Shown one piece after another: positions 2,957-63,800 of a stretch of 64,000 nucleotides of DNA. Source of the DNA: Chloroflexota bacterium (GTDB lineage: Bacteria > Chloroflexota > Anaerolineae > SpSt-313); assembly GCA_029553955.1 (NCBI GenBank), contig JAKPJZ010000250.1:124001-188000 (forward strand), given 5' to 3'. A program made the translations under genes and the position numbers. The notes under the pieces are model-generated. The model was not told the origin of the DNA. It worked only from the letters and a program-made list of their open reading frames with translations, and ran no database searches. Numbering within the stretch: position 1 is the stretch's first letter; each line of letters opens with the position of its first letter.

Positions 2957-3008
2957 GCCGGGGAGACACCTGACAGGTCTCCGAAGACCTGTCAGGTGTC
3001 TCCCCGGC
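2957..3008. repeat. Palindromic repeat, 24-bp arms
   Basis: gccggggagacacctgacaggtct-ccga-agacctgtcaggtgtctccccggc; same core as 11697-11754. Confidence 0.9.
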
Positions 3009-3009
3009 A

Positions 3010-3867
3010 TTAGTGGCTCTGGGCCACGCTGCTCGTGGGGAGTACGGGCGCGGCGACGAGGCTGCCTGGCTTGGCGGTGAGGAGTGAGCGGTCGGGCGGG
3101 GCGGGCACGCGGAGTGAGCCGATGCAGATGAATGGGGTGGTGAAGAGGTTGGCGATGCTCGCGCCGCACGCTGTACCGGCCGGCGATGCCAGGCGCGCGA
3201 CAAGGGGGCGGCCCTGATCGGGCGCAGCGGCGGCGGGGCGCTGCGCGCGGTCGGAGGCTGAGGCGGTGCTGCGGCGGCTCAGCAGGTTGACCGCCGGCTC
3301 GGTTGGGCTGGGCTGTGGCCTGGCGGTGGGGAGCGCCGGGGCGCGCGTTGGGCTGGCGGTGGGGGTGGCGGCGGCGGTGGGCTCGGGCTGAGCTGCCTCG
3401 ATGCCGCCCAGCCTGATGAACGAGATGCCCGGCACCCATTCGACCCAGTGCTCATAGTCGGTGGCGGGGATCCAGTTCCGGTCTTGCACGAGGACGCGGT
3501 TGCCGTCGACGGCGACGACCCAGCCCACGTGGCCGAGCGAGCTGACACCGCCGACGCTGGGACCCCAGACGATGACCGAGTAGATGCAACTGGGGTCGAC
3601 GCGGTCGATGACGTCGTAGCCGGCGTCGATCGCCCCCTGGCGCCAGTTCATAGCGTTGCCGAAATAGGGTAGCTTGTAACCCGCCGCGGCGGCGAGCTCC
3701 CACGCACGGTAGACGCACTGTGTCGGGTTGTGGTAGGGGTTGGTCTCGGGAATGACGGCGGCGATGGCCGGCGCTGCGCCTGGTGACGCTGCAGCGACAA
3801 GGAGGAGGCTTGCTGTGACCGCGGCAGTCGTGAGCAGGCGGATGGCGGACTGATAGAGCTTGTTCAT
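3010..3867 (-). CDS. Secreted CHAP-domain-like protein, paralog of the 1819-2769 product
   Basis: MNKLYQSAIRLL signal peptide; ETNPYHNPTQCVYRAWELAAAAGYKLPYFGNAMNWRQGAIDAGYDVIDRVDPS...GHVGWVVAVDGNRVLVQDRNWIPATD. Confidence 0.78.
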   Translation of the reverse strand: MNKLYQSAIRLLTTAAVTASLLLVAAASPGAAPAIAAVIPETNPYHNPTQCVYRAWELAAAAGYKLPYFGNAMNWRQGAIDAGYDVIDRVDPSCIYSVIVWGPSVGGVSSLGHVGWVVAVDGNRVLVQDRNWIPATDYEHWVEWVPGISFIRLGGIEAAQPEPTAAATPTASPTRAPALPTARPQPSPTEPAVNLLSRRSTASASDRAQRPAAAAPDQGRPLVARLASPAGTACGASIANLFTTPFICIGSLRVPAPPDRSLLTAKPGSLVAAPVLPTSSVAQSH

Positions 3868-3943: not shown

Positions 3944-3971
3944 ATTATACAATAGAAATTAATTGAAGCAA
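3944..3971 (-). promoter_or_regulatory. Candidate sigma70-type promoter for the CHAP gene
   Basis: On minus strand TTGCTT (3966-3971), 16-bp spacer, TATAAT (3944-3949). Confidence 0.55.
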
Positions 3972-3973
3972 AA

Positions 3974-4085
3974 CCACACTCATAGCTTGGAACTGGAGTG
4001 AGCGTGAGGAGGGGGCCATGCGCCGCCCGCGGGCGGCGCATGGCCCCCTCCTCACGCTCACTCCAGTTCCAAGCTATGAGTGTGG
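3974..4085. repeat. 112-bp perfect loopless palindrome
   Basis: ccacactcatagcttggaactggagtgagcgtgaggagggggccatgcgccgcccg followed by its exact reverse complement; 56-bp arms. Confidence 0.97.
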
Positions 4086-5573
4086 GATCGAGGCGACGGC
4101 GCGCGGCGGGACGGGCTCTGCGGCGGCGGCGAGCTCGCGTTGTTCGAGCCCGCAGAGCAGGCCGAGCAGGGCGAAGGGCAGCGGGGAGACGAGCTGGTGC
4201 ATGGCGCCGGCGGTGCGCCAGATGAAGAGGGTGTTGGTCTCAAAGAGGCCCTGGACGAGGAAGGCGACGAAGGCGCCGTAGAGGCCGGCGATGGCCCAGG
4301 TCGGCGCGCTGCGCTGTGCGGCGGGCGCGAGCATGGAACGGCCCAGGCGCAGGAGCGCCCACGCCCAGGCGGCGAGGCCGAGGAGGCCGGCATCGGCCCA
4401 GAGCTGGAGCAGAGCGTTGTGGGTGGCCTCGAGGCGCGCCTGGCCAAAGGCGCCGGAGACGATGACCCCCGCCTGGGCCACGCGGCCGAGGCCGATGCCG
4501 GTGATGGCATGGTCGCGCACCATTGCGATGGTGGCCTGCCACAGGCTATGGCGGATGGTCAGGTCGATGGCCGAGCCGAGGGCGGGCGACGCGCCCAGCA
4601 GCGCGGCCATGGCCAGGCCCGAGAGGGCGAGGGCGACAGTGGCCTGGCGGCGCCCACGGCCGGCGGCGACGACAAAGAGCGCCGCGGCACCGGCGCACCA
4701 GCCGGTGCGCGAGGCGGTGAGCAGGAGCGACCCCGCGGTGAGGATGACGCCGGCCGCCGCGAGCAGGCGGCGCCGGCCGTGGTTGTGCAGGGCGACAGCG
4801 ACCGCCAGCGCGAGGGCGATGGCGAGCAGCCCGGCCACGGCGTTGGGGTTGGGCGCCGGCAGAATGATGGCCGGCAGGTGCTCGCCGAGCCGGTAGGCCC
4901 AGGCGTTGAAGGTTGTGACCTTGCGGTGGTCCACAGGGTCGGGGCCGAAGGCCAGCGGCACGCCGGCGAGGGAGATGGCCACGAGCAGCGCGGCGATGCC
5001 GCCCGCACGGCCGGCGGCCGCGGCGCGCGAGCACAGGCTGTAGACGAGCGCACCCAGAGCGAGGCTGGCGAAGGTCGCCCAGCCGGGCCAGGGGCCGGGC
5101 AGGGCGACAAGCCCCACGAGCAGCCCGGCGAGCAGCAGGTAGAAGGGGCCGGCAAAGCTGAGCGCCGGCGCCTCGCAGGCGCAGACGAGGGGCTCGCCGG
5201 CGGGGGCCTGCCGCCACACCCAGGGCAGCCGGCGCCAGCCGCCGAGGAACAGCAGCAGCAGCCGCAGGGTGCCGCCCCGGGCGACGACGAGCGCGCGCGG
5301 CTTGAGGCGCACCTCCTGGGCAAAGCGGGCCGTGCGCACGAGGCCAGTGAGGACGGCGGGCCCACCCGAGAGCTGCTGCAGGCCGCTGTGCACCACAGGC
5401 CGCAGCCCCAGGCGCGCGGCCAGGGCCGACGAGGCCCGGCGCGTGCCGTGCTCGGGGCCGGTGTAGAGCACGTCGAAGCGGGCGGCGGCGAGCTCGCTCG
5501 CCAGGAATTCGACCTGTCGCGCGCCGTCCAGGCCGATGAGCACCGGCCCCGGGCGAGCTTGCTCTGCAGTCAT
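4074..5573 (-). CDS. O-antigen ligase-like membrane protein with N-terminal histidine-phosphatase-like segment
   Basis: Multiple TM segments; LTASRTGW, GIGLGRV, ATHNALLQLWADAGLLGLAAW (Wzy_C-like); N-term LIGLDGARQVEFLASELAAARFDVLYTGPEHGTRRASSALAARLGLRPVV. Confidence 0.75.
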   Translation of the reverse strand: MTAEQARPGPVLIGLDGARQVEFLASELAAARFDVLYTGPEHGTRRASSALAARLGLRPVVHSGLQQLSGGPAVLTGLVRTARFAQEVRLKPRALVVARGGTLRLLLLFLGGWRRLPWVWRQAPAGEPLVCACEAPALSFAGPFYLLLAGLLVGLVALPGPWPGWATFASLALGALVYSLCSRAAAAGRAGGIAALLVAISLAGVPLAFGPDPVDHRKVTTFNAWAYRLGEHLPAIILPAPNPNAVAGLLAIALALAVAVALHNHGRRRLLAAAGVILTAGSLLLTASRTGWCAGAAALFVVAAGRGRRQATVALALSGLAMAALLGASPALGSAIDLTIRHSLWQATIAMVRDHAITGIGLGRVAQAGVIVSGAFGQARLEATHNALLQLWADAGLLGLAAWAWALLRLGRSMLAPAAQRSAPTWAIAGLYGAFVAFLVQGLFETNTLFIWRTAGAMHQLVSPLPFALLGLLCGLEQRELAAAAEPVPPRAVASIPHS

Positions 5574-5719
5574 GGTTGATGACAGCCGATCACGAGCGAG
5601 TGCGGTTTCCAAACGAAGATGATACTCCTTGGTTCTCCAACCGTACTTGGCGCGGGCAGTCACAGCAATCCGGCTGGCTGCCGGCTGATCTGCTGCGCTT
5701 CAGCCCGGCCCTGGCCTGG

Positions 5720-5803
5720 AGGGGGGAATTCTCGACGGGCTGGGCGACCCGTGGCCGCCCGCCGGCGGCCACGGGTCGCCCAGCCCGTCGAGAATTCCCC
5801 CCT
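5720..5803. repeat. Long palindrome, 40-bp perfect arms, 4-nt loop
   Basis: aggggggaattctcgacgggctgggcgacccgtggccgcc-cgcc-ggcggccacgggtcgcccagcccgtcgagaattcccccct. Confidence 0.97.
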
Positions 5804-11696: not shown

Positions 11697-11754
11697 GGTG
11701 CTGGGGAGACACCTGACAGGTCTCCGGAGACCTGTCAGGTGTCTCCCCAGCACC
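11697..11754. repeat. 58-bp perfect palindrome
   Basis: ggtgctggggagacacctgacaggtctcc|ggagacctgtcaggtgtctccccagcacc; shares core with 2957-3008. Confidence 0.93.
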
Positions 11755-13965: not shown

Positions 13966-14061
13966 CAAAGGGGGAAATGCTGGGCTGGCCGGTCTGCGCC
14001 GCCGGCTGCCCCGCCGGGCAGCCGGCGGCGCAGACCGGCCAGCCCAGCATTTCCCCCTTTG
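13966..14061. repeat. Long palindrome, 46-bp perfect arms, 4-nt loop
   Basis: caaagggggaaatgctgggctggccggtctgcgccgccggctgccc-cgcc-exact reverse complement. Confidence 0.97.
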
Positions 14062-15341: not shown

Positions 15342-16323
15342 CGAACAACCTCCTGCCGGGGTGGCCGCAGGTGCGGGCGATGCTGACGCCCGCGAGGGGC
15401 CGCTGAACTGGGTCGAAGTGAGTGTGGTGGTGGATGCCGAGACCGCCGAGGCTGTGAACGCTCTCTTCGAGCAGCATGGAGACGGCGGCGCAGTTGTTGA
15501 GGAGGTGCCGCTGCAGCCCGGGCTGGTCGACGAGCGCGAGCTGCGCGATGCGCCAGCGCCGGAGGGAGGCCTCGCCGTTCGCCGCGTGATCAAGGCATTC
15601 CTGCCGGCCGGCGACGAGGCGCGGCTGGAGGCGCTGCGGCAGGCGCTGTGGCACCTCAGCCAGTTGCGGCCGCTGCCCGAGCCGGAGATCCGCGAGCTGG
15701 GCCCGGCCGACTGGGCGGAGGCCTGGAAGTCGGGCTACCAGGTGCTCACGGTCGGGCCTCGCATGCGCATTGTGCCCTCGTGGATCCCCTACGAGCCGGC
15801 ACCGGGCGAGGTGACGATCACGCTCGACCCAGGCATGGCCTTTGGCACCGGGCTACACCCCACGACGCAGCTCTGCCTGCAGGCGCTCGAGGACCTGATC
15901 GTGCCGGGCATGCGCGTGCTCGATGTGGGCACCGGCTCGGGCATCCTCGCCATCGCCGCGGCCAAGCTGGGCGCGGCGGAGGTGCTGGGGCTCGATATCG
16001 ACATGATCGCCGTGCGCACCGCCCGCGAGAACATGCAGTTGAACGGCGTAGACAGCGTGGTGCGCGTGGAACGGGGCTCGGTCGACACGGCCGACCACGG
16101 CGCCTACGACCTGGTGCTGGCCAATATCCTGGCCGAGATCAACGCGCGCCTGGCGCCCGACCTGGCCAGGCACACCGCGCCGCAGGGCTGGCTCGTGGCT
16201 TCGGGGATCCTCGACACGCGCGAGCCGGTCGTCACGCAGGCGTTCGCTGCGGCCGGGCTCGAGGTCGCGCGCTGCTGGCAGCAGGAGGACTGGCTGGCCC
16301 TGGGGGCCCGGCATACCGAATAG
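15325..16323 (+). CDS. prmA: Ribosomal protein L11 methyltransferase
   Basis: [48 protein letters not shown] motifs; overlaps dnaJ by 17 bp. Confidence 0.94.
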
Positions 16324-16409
16324 GAGGGGGTTTGGGTGGGGTTGGGGCTGCCCTGGCCCGCCCGCGGGCGGGCCAGGGCAGCCCCAACCCCACCCAAACC
16401 CCCTCCTAT
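16320..16409. repeat. 90-bp perfect loopless palindrome filling the prmA-rsmE gap
   Basis: ataggagggggtttgggtggggttggggctgccctggcccgcccg followed by its exact reverse complement. Confidence 0.97.
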
Positions 16410-24260: not shown

Positions 24261-24336
24261 GGGGTTTGGAGTTCCGGTTGGCGTTGCCGGTCGCCCCGCG
24301 GGGCGACCGGCAACGCCAACCGGAACTCCAAACCCC
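24261..24336. repeat. 76-bp perfect loopless palindrome
   Basis: ggggtttggagttccggttggcgttgccggtcgccccg plus exact reverse complement. Confidence 0.97.
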
Positions 24337-24357
24337 AATCCCGAGTGGAGATGTGCG

Positions 24358-25608
24358 ATGGCCACGACCAGGTTGCCGCTGGTTGTTTGGGTCTCCAGAA
24401 GGCTCTATGGCCTCTTGCTGTGGCTCTGCCCGGCTCAGTATCGCCGCGAGTATGGGCCGTCGATGCGGCAGGCCTTTAGCGACCTGGCGCGTGAGGCCTA
24501 CGCGCGGCATGGCGCCTGCGGCGTGCTGGCGCTATGGCTGCGCGCCTTCCCGGATCTCGTGGCGACCGCGACCCGCGAGCACCTCGCGGCGTTCTCGTAT
24601 GGAGGTGGCATCATGCTGGAGGATCGGCCCTGTACCCCGCGCCCGTGGTGGCAGGTGGGTCTGGCCGTGCTGCCCGGTCTGCTGGTTATTGTGGGCGACT
24701 GGCGGCAGCCCCGGCTGCTGGCCGGGCTCGCCAGCAGCCGGGGCCACAGCCTGCCGCTCCTCGCCCTCGCCGTCCTCCTGGTGGCGGCCGGCCTCGTATG
24801 GCGCCGCCGCGTCCCGCCGTGGGCCCTGCCGGCGCTGGGCCTGCTCTTCGGCGTGGCGGTGGCGGGGCCGTACTTTCTGCTGCTCGGCCTGCCCGGCGCA
24901 CTGGCCGCGGTGGCCTATCTGGCCGCCCACGGGCTGCGGCGGCGCGGTCTGCCGGCGCGGGCCTGGGCGCTGCTGGCCGCCTGTCTCTGCCTCTCCCTGC
25001 TGCCGGCGCTGGGCGCTGCCCTGGGCCTGCCCTTTCTGGCGCGCTCGTTCGGCTGGCTGGGTTGGCTGAGCCCGTGGTCGACCCTCGGCGTCGGCGCCAC
25101 CCTCCTGGTGGCATTCGTGGCCCTGCCCCTCGCCCGGCCGCACGGCCTGCCCGCCGGCCTGTTGCTGCTGGCGACCGGCTTTGCTTTGTGGGAGCAGACC
25201 TTTGACCTGATGTATGGCCTGGCACGCACCCTCTGGGGCAACACCATGCTGGCCGTCCTGGCGGCGCTGCTGCTCGTCGTGGCGCCGCTGTGGGTGCTGC
25301 GTGCCCGCTCTCTCCACGGCCAGGCGCGCGGGCTGCTCGTTCCGGCGGCAGCGGCGCTGGCCGGCGTGGTCGCCATCGACACCATCGTGCGCACCGATCC
25401 GGCCATCCTCGAGGGGCTGCTGCACCGCGCGGTCGCCCTGGACGAAGTCCTGGGCATCAGCTACGGATCGAGTGGGCCGGCGCTGCTCGCCCCCTTCCTG
25501 CTGCGCAACGGCCTGGCTGTGCTGCAGCTCCTGCTGGCGCTGCTGCTGGCCGTGGTGCTGTTCGCGAGGGCGCAGGCTGCCGGGGCGCTGCGCGAAGAGG
25601 AGGCATGA
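24358..25608 (+). CDS. PadR-associated membrane protein (paralog 1)
   Basis: N-term LLLWLCPAQYRREYGPSMRQAFSDLAREAYARHGACGVLALWLRAFPDLVATATREH module followed by TM segments. Confidence 0.7.
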   Translation: MATTRLPLVVWVSRRLYGLLLWLCPAQYRREYGPSMRQAFSDLAREAYARHGACGVLALWLRAFPDLVATATREHLAAFSYGGGIMLEDRPCTPRPWWQVGLAVLPGLLVIVGDWRQPRLLAGLASSRGHSLPLLALAVLLVAAGLVWRRRVPPWALPALGLLFGVAVAGPYFLLLGLPGALAAVAYLAAHGLRRRGLPARAWALLAACLCLSLLPALGAALGLPFLARSFGWLGWLSPWSTLGVGATLLVAFVALPLARPHGLPAGLLLLATGFALWEQTFDLMYGLARTLWGNTMLAVLAALLLVVAPLWVLRARSLHGQARGLLVPAAAALAGVVAIDTIVRTDPAILEGLLHRAVALDEVLGISYGSSGPALLAPFLLRNGLAVLQLLLALLLAVVLFARAQAAGALREEEA

Positions 25609-26705
25609 TGGCCGGTGGCAGGCGAGCGCCCATCCTTGCGGTTTCGCATACGGTCTACGACCTGCTGCTCTGGCTGTGCCCGGCTCGGTATCGTCGCGAG
25701 TACGGGCCGTTGATGCGGCAGGCCTTCGCCGACCTGGCGCGTGAGGCCTACGCGCGGCATGGCGCCTGCGGCGTGCTGGCGCTGTGGCTGCGCCTGCTGC
25801 CCGACGCCTGCGCCACGGCCCTCGCTGAGCACATCGTGGCGCTCAAGGAGCGGCGCGTCGCCGCGCCGGCGCTCGCCGCGGCGGGCGGGCAGGGAGGATA
25901 CAGCATGCGTTCGAGGCTGGCAACTGATGTGGGCTACGTCGCCGGCATGGGCACGCTGCTCGCCGGCGCCTTCTCTGTCTGGCCGGTGTACGCCATGGGC
26001 GGCGTGGCACTCGTCATGCGCCTGCTGGGGCCGGGCGCGCTCAACAGCCCGCTGAGCAACGTGCTCGCCATCTCGGTGGGCATGGGCGCCTTCTGGGTCA
26101 CCACGCTGCTCAGCGAGCTGGGCTTCTACCTGGGGGTCAGCGCCGCCGGCATCGCCCTGGCCGTGGCGGGGCTGCTCTTCGGCCCCCGCAGGCGCCTGCT
26201 GCTGGCCGTGGAGGCGCTGACGCTGCTGGGCATCTTGGCTTTCCCCTGGTTCTTCCGCTACCGCGCGCCGGTGGTGGCCGCGCCGGGCGTCACCCTACAC
26301 GTGGCCACGCAGCCGGGCCTGCTCCACGGCGTGGTCAAGTCGGCGCAGGCGTTCGCGGAGATAGTCCCCAGCAGCTACGAGATCCTGGGCTGGAGCGCGG
26401 ACGGCGTGCTCTACTACCGCGAGACGGTGCGGGCGACGCAGGAGCTGCGCACCTGGGCCTACACGCCGGGCGCAGCCGCGCAGCTCGTGGCGGCCGCCGG
26501 CGACCTCGCGCCCACCGTACCGGTCAGGCGGGTGGCGTTGCAGGAGCGGGTGCGCGGGGAGGTGTGGCCTGAGAACGCCGAGGAGAGCACGCGCGCGCTC
26601 AAGATGCGCCACGACGGCGTGGCCTCGCCCGATGGCCGCTGGGCGGCAGCGGTGGCGCAGCACATCTATGGGCCGCAGGATGTCATTGTCGTGGCGCTGC
26701 CGTAG
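25605..26705 (+). CDS. PadR-associated membrane protein (paralog 2)
   Basis: LLLWLCPARYRREYGPLMRQAFADLAREAYARHGACGVLALWLRLLPDACATALAEH; ATGA overlap with previous gene. Confidence 0.7.
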   Translation: MMAGGRRAPILAVSHTVYDLLLWLCPARYRREYGPLMRQAFADLAREAYARHGACGVLALWLRLLPDACATALAEHIVALKERRVAAPALAAAGGQGGYSMRSRLATDVGYVAGMGTLLAGAFSVWPVYAMGGVALVMRLLGPGALNSPLSNVLAISVGMGAFWVTTLLSELGFYLGVSAAGIALAVAGLLFGPRRRLLLAVEALTLLGILAFPWFFRYRAPVVAAPGVTLHVATQPGLLHGVVKSAQAFAEIVPSSYEILGWSADGVLYYRETVRATQELRTWAYTPGAAAQLVAAAGDLAPTVPVRRVALQERVRGEVWPENAEESTRALKMRHDGVASPDGRWAAAVAQHIYGPQDVIVVALP

Positions 26706-26783
26706 GGGCGGGGTTTCCCCGCCCTTGGCCGGCCGGCGAACCGGGTTTTGCGCGTTGCGCGAGCCCGGTACGAGCCTGGTGTA

Positions 26784-26860
26784 GGGAGTTTGGGGTGCAG
26801 TCGGACGCTGCGGGTCGCCCCGCGGGGCGACCCGCAGCGTCCGACTGCACCCCAAACCCC
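26784..26860. repeat. Long palindrome, 35-bp perfect arms extended past one mismatch
   Basis: gtttggggtgcagtcggacgctgcgggtcgccccg (26788-26822) plus exact reverse complement (26823-26857). Confidence 0.96.
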
Positions 26861-26895
26861 TGCCCTGGGATAGGGCCGGGTGGTCGCGAGGCGAG

Positions 26896-27596
26896 ATGGC
26901 CGGCCGATTCAGGAGATGGATGATGTCACCCACGAAACCTGCGACAACGCTCATGATCTGTGGGAGGCTCTACAGCCTCTTGCTGTGGCTGTGCCCGGCT
27001 GCGTACCGGCGCGCGTATGGGCCGTTGATGCGGCAGGCCTTCGCCGACCTGGCGCGTGAGGCGTACGAGCGGCGCGGGGCGGGGGCGTGGCGACGCTGTG
27101 GCGGCGCATTCTCCCCGACACGTGCGCCACGGCGCTGGCGGAGTGGTGGCCGGCCCTGCGTGCGGAGGGCGGGGTGCGGCTGCGGGCGCTGCCCATGATG
27201 CTCGTGGCGGCCTCTCTCTGCGCCCCCTGGTTCCGCTTCCACGACGGCGGCACTTTCACGGGCTGGCAGACGGTCTGGATGTCGCTTCTGCCTGGCGACT
27301 GGACGGCGCTCCACGTGACGCTGCTCCTCATGACCCTGTCCCTCGTCGCAGCAACCCTCGTCGCTCTCGGCGTCGAGCCGCTGGCGGCCAGGCTTTCTCG
27401 CGGGCAAGCAGCGCTCCTGCTCGTCACCCTGGCCGGCATCGCCATCTTTGCCATTGCCTGGGGGCCGTGGCCGGGTGTCGGGGGAGCGCCGGGGGTGCTA
27501 TGGGGCGCGTGGTTGACGGCGGCCTGCATCGGCGTGGCGCTGGCTGTGGAGGCGGCGCTGTGGGTGGGCGCGCGGCGGCCTGCGGGGTGCCATTGA
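26896..27596 (+). pseudogene. PadR-associated membrane protein (paralog 3), apparent frameshift
   Basis: LLLWLCPAAYRRAYGPLMRQAFADLAREAYERRGAG in frame 1, continuation GVATLWRRILPDTCATALAEWW... in frame 3; break near the G-rich run around 27070-27085. Confidence 0.65.
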
Positions 27597-28068: not shown

Positions 28069-28407
28069 GTGGCAGGCGTGGGGTGTTACGCCACCTGGTA
28101 GATCGCCGGCCGGTAGCGTGGCGAGGGAATGGGCTTGCCGGCGGCGCGAGCGGCTTCGAGCCAGGCCTCTATGGAGGCTGTCACGGCAAGAAGCTTTGGC
28201 CAAGACCACATCGCCCAAGAACCTCTGCGGTCTTGGTGATTCAGCAGCCTCCGACGGTTCTGGGGTGCACCCTCCGGCGTGCCGGGTATATCCCACAGTC
28301 GTGGGGCACCCGTGTGCTGGCCGGGTTCTCCGCTCCGCTGCCACCCTTTGGGCGCGGACAAGCCTGCACAGGCTCATGTTCTCGTGCGCCCGGCCCTGAC
28401 CCGGGTT

Positions 28408-28485
28408 AGGGGTTTGGCGGGCTGGCTGGCGTTGCTGGCCGCCCCGCGGGGCGGCCAGCAACGCCAGCCAGCCCGCCAAACCCCT
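28408..28485. repeat. 78-bp perfect loopless palindrome
   Basis: aggggtttggcgggctggctggcgttgctggccgccccg plus exact reverse complement. Confidence 0.97.
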
Positions 28486-28594
28486 GCCTCAAAGGCCAGC
28501 ACCGGGTTCGTGCGAAGCTCAAGAGCCGGTCACCAACGATGATGGGATATACCCCCGGCGTGCCAGAGTTGTTTCCCTAATACGCAGAGTGTGG

Positions 28595-30392: not shown

Positions 30393-30472
30393 GGGGGATT
30401 TTGAGGTTCTCCAGCGCCGACTGGCCCGCCCGCAGGCGGGCCAGTCGGCGCTGGAGAACCTCAAAATCCCCC
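30393..30472. repeat. Long palindrome, 38-bp perfect arms, 4-nt loop
   Basis: gggggattttgaggttctccagcgccgactggcccgcc-cgca-exact reverse complement. Confidence 0.97.
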
Positions 30473-54052: not shown

Positions 54053-54131
54053 GGGGTCTGGTGAGTTTGCCGGTGCGTCTGGCCGCCCCCCGCGGGGGCG
54101 GCCAGACGCACCGGCAAACTCACCAGACCCC
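54053..54131. repeat. Long palindrome, 38-bp perfect arms, 3-nt loop
   Basis: ggggtctggtgagtttgccggtgcgtctggccgccccc-cgc-exact reverse complement. Confidence 0.97.
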
Positions 54132-56385: not shown

Positions 56386-56469
56386 GGGGGATTGGCGGGT
56401 TGGTCGCTGGCGCCGCCGGCTGCCCCGCGGGGCAGCCGGCGGCGCCAGCGACCAACCCGCCAATCCCCC
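56386..56469. repeat. 84-bp perfect loopless palindrome
   Basis: gggggattggcgggttggtcgctggcgccgccggctgccccg plus exact reverse complement. Confidence 0.97.
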
Positions 56470-61973: not shown

Positions 61974-62047
61974 GGGGGAATCGGCGGGGTGGCTGAGCCA
62001 TGGCCGCCCACGGGCGGCCATGGCTCAGCCAACCCGCCGATTCCCCC
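61974..62047. repeat. Long palindrome, 36-bp arms with a single mismatch, 2-nt loop
   Basis: gggggaatcggcggggtggctgagccatggccgccc / gggcggccatggctcagccaacccgccgattccccc. Confidence 0.96.
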
Positions 62048-63728: not shown

Positions 63729-63800
63729 GCGGTTTGGGTGGGTTGGTTGGCCCTGGCGCGCCCGCGGGCGCGCCAGGGCCAACCAACCCACCCAAACCGC
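63729..63800. repeat. 72-bp perfect loopless palindrome
   Basis: gcggtttgggtgggttggttggccctggcgcgcccg plus exact reverse complement. Confidence 0.97.

Follow-up and report, generated by a model that had tools for sequence, protein, structure and literature searches.

Introduction

The arms of an inverted repeat can be made identical by copying, as described for quasipalindrome-associated template-switch mutagenesis in E. coli and yeast (PMC7202029, PMC3820800, PMC8794818), which leaves signatures such as multi-base replacement and inversion of the spacer (the latter in PMC8604942). This process is known mainly at individual sites, and arm homogenization by template switching has so far mostly been inferred from single mutations. 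Numerous long perfect inverted repeats have also been described in the mitochondria of Nematomorpha, where coding palindromes are abundant, imperfect ones are almost absent, and the authors suggest active repeat conversion (PMC6649704). In bacteria, REP/REPIN elements and MITEs are dispersed, palindromic and intergenic, are often found downstream of genes, and show compensatory changes (PMC3116915, PMC3733652). REP stems span 5-13 bp and carry an unpaired GTAG or CGTC tag (PMC3733652).

The palindromes that we describe here touch on each of these systems. Arm copying, multi-base replacement and spacer inversion are shared with quasipalindrome mutagenesis, but here the process appears to have shaped a large share of the long palindromes of one genome, gene ends included. 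Whereas the Nematomorpha palindromes are mitochondrial and lie inside genes, these come from a bacterium and lie for the most part between genes or at stop codons, and their sister copies show replacement tracts. Unlike REP sequences, they have perfect arms of 35-56 bp, with one type embedded in elements bounded by terminal inverted repeats, and a gene-end type with unique arms. They resemble intrinsic terminators in that the hairpin directly follows a stop codon or separates convergent genes, but their stems are several times longer, perfectly paired at the DNA level, and not generally followed by a U-tract. A single genome here offers hundreds of perfect palindromes (by extrapolation), sister copies recording replaced tracts of either direction, and apparently rewritten gene ends, and with it the origin and persistence of long perfect palindromes in bacteria become directly testable. 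It also carries a warning that perfect hairpin pairing need not imply selection on RNA.

Results

We analyzed a stretch of 64,000 nucleotides (the window) from a 5.37-Mb metagenome-assembled genome (MAG) of an uncultured Chloroflexota bacterium (Anaerolineae-type). Contamination of the MAG is 8%, two of its contigs are fold-backs, and its nearest named relatives, judged by GlmS, are Anaerolineae MAGs (68% identity). An earlier sequence-only reading had reported a 112-bp perfect palindrome at 3974-4085, and we find it to be real: the 56-nt arms are 100% complementary, with 0 mismatches and a 0-nt spacer, compared to arms of only 10-11 (about 11) attained in Markov-simulated windows. The claim that one arm holds the end of an O-antigen-ligase-like gene is also correct, as CCA CAC TCA TAG, read from 4085 to 4074, fills the final 12 nt of the right arm, with the identical 12 nt at the start of the left arm. 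Table 1 lists this locus and the other palindromes of the window; gene calls beyond the named genes are codon-based predictions.

Table 1. Features of the palindrome locus and other palindromes in the window
Feature	Position	Strand	Remarks
Left arm of 112-bp palindrome	3974..4029	.	56 nt, non-coding side
Right arm of 112-bp palindrome	4030..4085	.	56 nt, exact reverse complement of left arm; holds the last three ligase codons plus stop in its final 12 nt
O-antigen-ligase-like gene, Wzy_C domain (PF04932)	4074..5663	-	tail ...ASIPHS*; last 12 nt inside arm
Pro-His-Ser-stop, CCA CAC TCA TAG	4074..4085	-	mirrored at 3974-3985; codon score in lowest 1.9% of gene ends
CHAP-domain gene, downstream of palindrome	3010..3867	-	
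Possible promoter TTGCTT-16-TATAAT	3944..3971	-	begins 2 nt past palindrome, weak -35
Family-type palindrome	5720..5803	.	arm 40, 4-nt spacer, both outer flanks
Family-type palindrome	13966..14061	.	arm 46, 4-nt spacer, between divergent genes
Palindrome	16320..16409	.	arm 45; outer end ATAG holds upstream gene's stop codon, mirrored on far side
Family-type palindrome	24261..24336	.	arm 38
Family-type palindrome	26788..26857	.	arm 35
SET1 MITE-like element copy	28310..28560	+	ends GGGTATATCCCA.../...TGGGATATACCC, around palindrome 28408-28485
Family-type palindrome	30393..30472	.	arm 38, spacer CGCA
Family-type palindrome	54053..54131	.	arm 38
Family-type palindrome	56386..56469	.	arm 42, 6 nt past stop codon
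Family-type palindrome	61974..62047	.	arm 36, one mismatch
Family-type palindrome	63729..63800	.	arm 36

The palindrome at 3974-4085 is part of a genome-wide system. Sampled stretches totalling 845 kb of the MAG contain about 130 palindromes with arms of at least 17 nt, which by extrapolation gives hundreds of long perfect palindromes in the genome. A sister genus, G001, has 16 such palindromes in 172 kb, and G002 has one in 123 kb. In 12 other genomes of the class, 396 kb contained none with arms of at least 18 nt, and the family-type pattern described below was absent from the other 395 sampled genomes of the class and from the named genome collection.

These palindromes fall into two kinds, which we sorted by arm-similarity scores with a cut-off of 18. 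Those of the family type (GGGGTTTGG...GCCGCCCG) form the center of MITE-like elements of ~250-305 bp that have terminal inverted repeats and occur in dozens of copies. The others are one-off palindromes with unique arms; all 21 are perfect, and 15 of them lie between -14 and +20 nt relative to a stop codon, compared to 8.25% expected from random intergenic placement (p=2e-12) and to 10 of 63 for family-type arms. Five of the unique-arm palindromes are flanked by convergent stops. Stems of every length are enriched at gene 3' ends, from 9-17 bp (49 versus 3 in coding controls) to 35-60 bp (26 versus 1). Gene-end palindromes show no U-tract enrichment, and Rfam and tRNA scans were empty. The genome encodes three Y1_Tnp genes, the Y1 tyrosine transposase type (RAYT) that accompanies REP/REPIN elements. 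A second dispersed palindrome family, with the core GACACCTGACAGGTC, is found at several loci, including 2957-3008 and 11697-11754 of the window, and its ACACCTGA provides several genes with their stop codon.

Neighboring families are MITE-like in having terminal inverted repeats and multiple copies, whereas 3974-4085 has neither. It lacks the outer flanks shared by its neighbors, as had been proposed, and it also lacks their terminal repeats and a target-site duplication, with no direct repeat of at least 3 nt at its exact edges. Its 56-bp stem without a GTAG or CGTC tag likewise sets it apart from REP/REPIN sequences. Apart from ~38 nt at the center, which match another palindrome at 89%, the arms have no match elsewhere in the genome. 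The outer 32 nt of the arm have no second occurrence, and the inner 24 nt are similar to a repeat-family core, so the core of this palindrome may have come by insertion. Owing to this center its arm-similarity score is 19, just above the cut-off, and it stands outside the 21 palindromes counted as unique-arm; in its location and missing flanks it resembles the gene-end group.

Sister copies elsewhere in the lineage record how the arms change. Among palindromes with arms of at least 30 nt, 77 of 83 have no mismatch and the remaining 6 have one. These 83 include the two fold-back contigs, C2 (53,358 bp) and C9 (30,840 bp) of G000, whose fetched parts are perfect self-inverted repeats about the midpoint, centered on a family-type palindrome, and which are apparently assembly artifacts. 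Over all elements, mismatches are not mainly of the G-U type. Copies of different families diverge by tens of percent, yet the two arms within a copy hardly differ. An alignment of 28 sister copies (1076 arm-pair cells) contains 22 substitutions that are paired and complementary, some of them common by descent, along with 6 confined to one arm and 1 that is paired without being complementary. At L134, the left flank has been copied in reverse complement over the inner part of the right flank, beyond which the normal right flank resumes, and at L141 the left flank was overwritten by the right. Both loci, like the paired substitutions, display the replaced tract matching the opposite arm that template switching leaves. 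In addition, both arms at L106:5156 carry a 4-nt deletion in mirror image, and two nearly identical copies in G001 differ by an exactly inverted 3-nt spacer (ACA versus TGT); 3974-4085 itself has no spacer. Taken together, these substitutions, flank replacements, mirrored deletion and spacer inversion are unexplained by point mutation and selection, and we conclude that in this lineage one palindrome arm is overwritten from the other at its own site, in either direction. The general idea of the earlier reading, that palindromes are made in place, therefore finds its support at these sister loci.

We then asked which arm was the source at the ligase. No close ortholog of the ligase turned up: the best match, from the same family, is 37% identical over part of the protein, and comparing C-termini was uninformative because tails past the last membrane helix differ in length and sequence among homologs. 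The codons CCA CAC TCA look non-coding (Table 1), which makes it more likely that the non-coding arm supplied the ligase tail, an argument resting on three codons. The palindrome thus probably rewrote the last three codons of the ligase, giving it its Pro-His-Ser-stop. The comparison of C-termini suggested in the sequence-only reading could be run at a sister locus, the glmS palindrome at L048:19277, where the mirror image of the glmS stop forms the stop of the convergent gene. The ...SVTVE terminus is unchanged in palindrome-free orthologs, which makes the gene side the apparent source at this locus, over a stretch of only 4 nt.

At the RNA level, the 3' end of the ligase transcript is predicted to fold into a 56-bp hairpin of -133.6 kcal/mol (z -19), followed by UUUUGCUU. 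A G+C-rich hairpin at the stop codon, with the stop here inside the arm, is what an intrinsic terminator would have, and the T-rich TTTTGCTT directly after it is also a possible terminator tail, although the scan did not pick it up. Continuing along the minus strand past the palindrome are TT, TTGCTT (3971-3966), 16 nt and TATAAT (3949-3944), and then the CHAP gene. The proposal of a promoter 2 bp from the palindrome is thus correct as to motifs and position, and the -10 is perfect, but TTGCTT matches the -35 consensus at only 3/6 positions, and the promoter scan did not call the site. We infer that 3974-4085 likely acts as a very strong, terminator-like hairpin at the 3' end that keeps the ligase apart from the CHAP promoter. 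The CHAP-domain genes at 1819-2769 and 3010-3867 themselves look like a tandem duplication, with 72-76% DNA identity in stretches.

Discussion

The explanation that we favor, and consider reasonably probable, is that 3974-4085 is a gene-end palindrome that owes both its origin and its lasting perfection to arm-to-arm copying. A hairpin just past the ligase stop would fold out during DNA replication, and the polymerase would then switch template to the other arm, so that one arm is rewritten in reverse complement to its partner. Repeated events of this kind could have extended perfect pairing outward to 56 bp and into the last codons of the ligase. That the process visible at sister loci also made 3974-4085 is our inference, and replication template switching is suggested as the underlying enzymology by analogy with published systems (PMC7202029, PMC8794818, PMC6649704).

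The same mechanism could have run the other way, with ligase coding sequence copied into the left arm, as the sequence-only reading had entertained. Copying in both directions at sister loci and the mirrored stop on the ancestral gene side of glmS would allow for this, but the non-coding look of the terminal ligase codons (in the lowest 1.9% of gene ends) and the lack of conservation of the tail in distant homologs speak against it, and we regard this direction as unlikely. We are similarly doubtful that a mobile MITE- or REP-like palindromic element inserted at the 3' end of the ligase, bringing the last codons and stop without any copying in place. Dozens of related elements with terminal inverted repeats are dispersed through the genome, stop codons do come from other repeats, as with the ACACCTGA core in several genes, and the inner 24 nt resemble family cores. 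However, 3974-4085 has no terminal repeats, family flanks or flanking direct repeat, its outer 32 nt are found nowhere else in the genome, and it occupies the same kind of site as the unique-arm palindromes at gene ends.

Arms could also stay complementary through ordinary selection for a strong RNA hairpin, with no copying at the DNA level. The position of palindromes at stop codons and between convergent genes, the enrichment of shorter stems at 3' ends, and the extreme RNA stability of this hairpin fit such a terminator. Yet an RNA hairpin under selection could accommodate G-U pairs and would not require 40-56 perfect pairs, U-tract enrichment is not seen, and selection cannot yield the multi-base flank replacements at L134 and L141, mirrored deletions or an inverted spacer; we consider it quite improbable as the sole cause. 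Least plausible of all is that the assembler created or perfected the palindrome. Although a palindrome lies at the center of the self-inverted contigs C2 and C9 and contig C168 begins inside one, different genes lie on each side of 3974-4085, the assembly kept copies with mismatches or deletions, and homologous palindromes appear in the independent assembly of the sister genus, which together make an artifact very unlikely.

More tentatively, frequent template switching within palindromes may be a property of the whole lineage. Palindromes would then perpetuate themselves: short 3' hairpins would grow long and perfect, rewriting gene ends and stops, and the cores of MITE-like elements would be kept perfect. 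This extension is possible, though we hold it with less conviction than the account of the single locus. We considered loss of SbcCD, the palindrome-cutting nuclease, as a cause and rejected it. None of the three genomes of the family has canonical SbcD, but neither do several relatives free of palindromes, and a divergent Mre11/Rad50-like (SbcCD-like) pair is present in place of canonical SbcCD at G000:C20:32951-36919 and also in G001. Exonuclease VII (XseA) is present.

Two further observations concern repeats of this genome. The SET2 copies at L160, L163 and L174 have an identical 47-nt spacer between their arms, possibly the ancestral form, and loopless copies could come from deletion between CGCCC repeats. 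Within the window, a related 187-nt stretch occurs three times at 24357-27108, with 65-80% identity and a spacing of ~1.3 kb, in a region that holds several palindromes.
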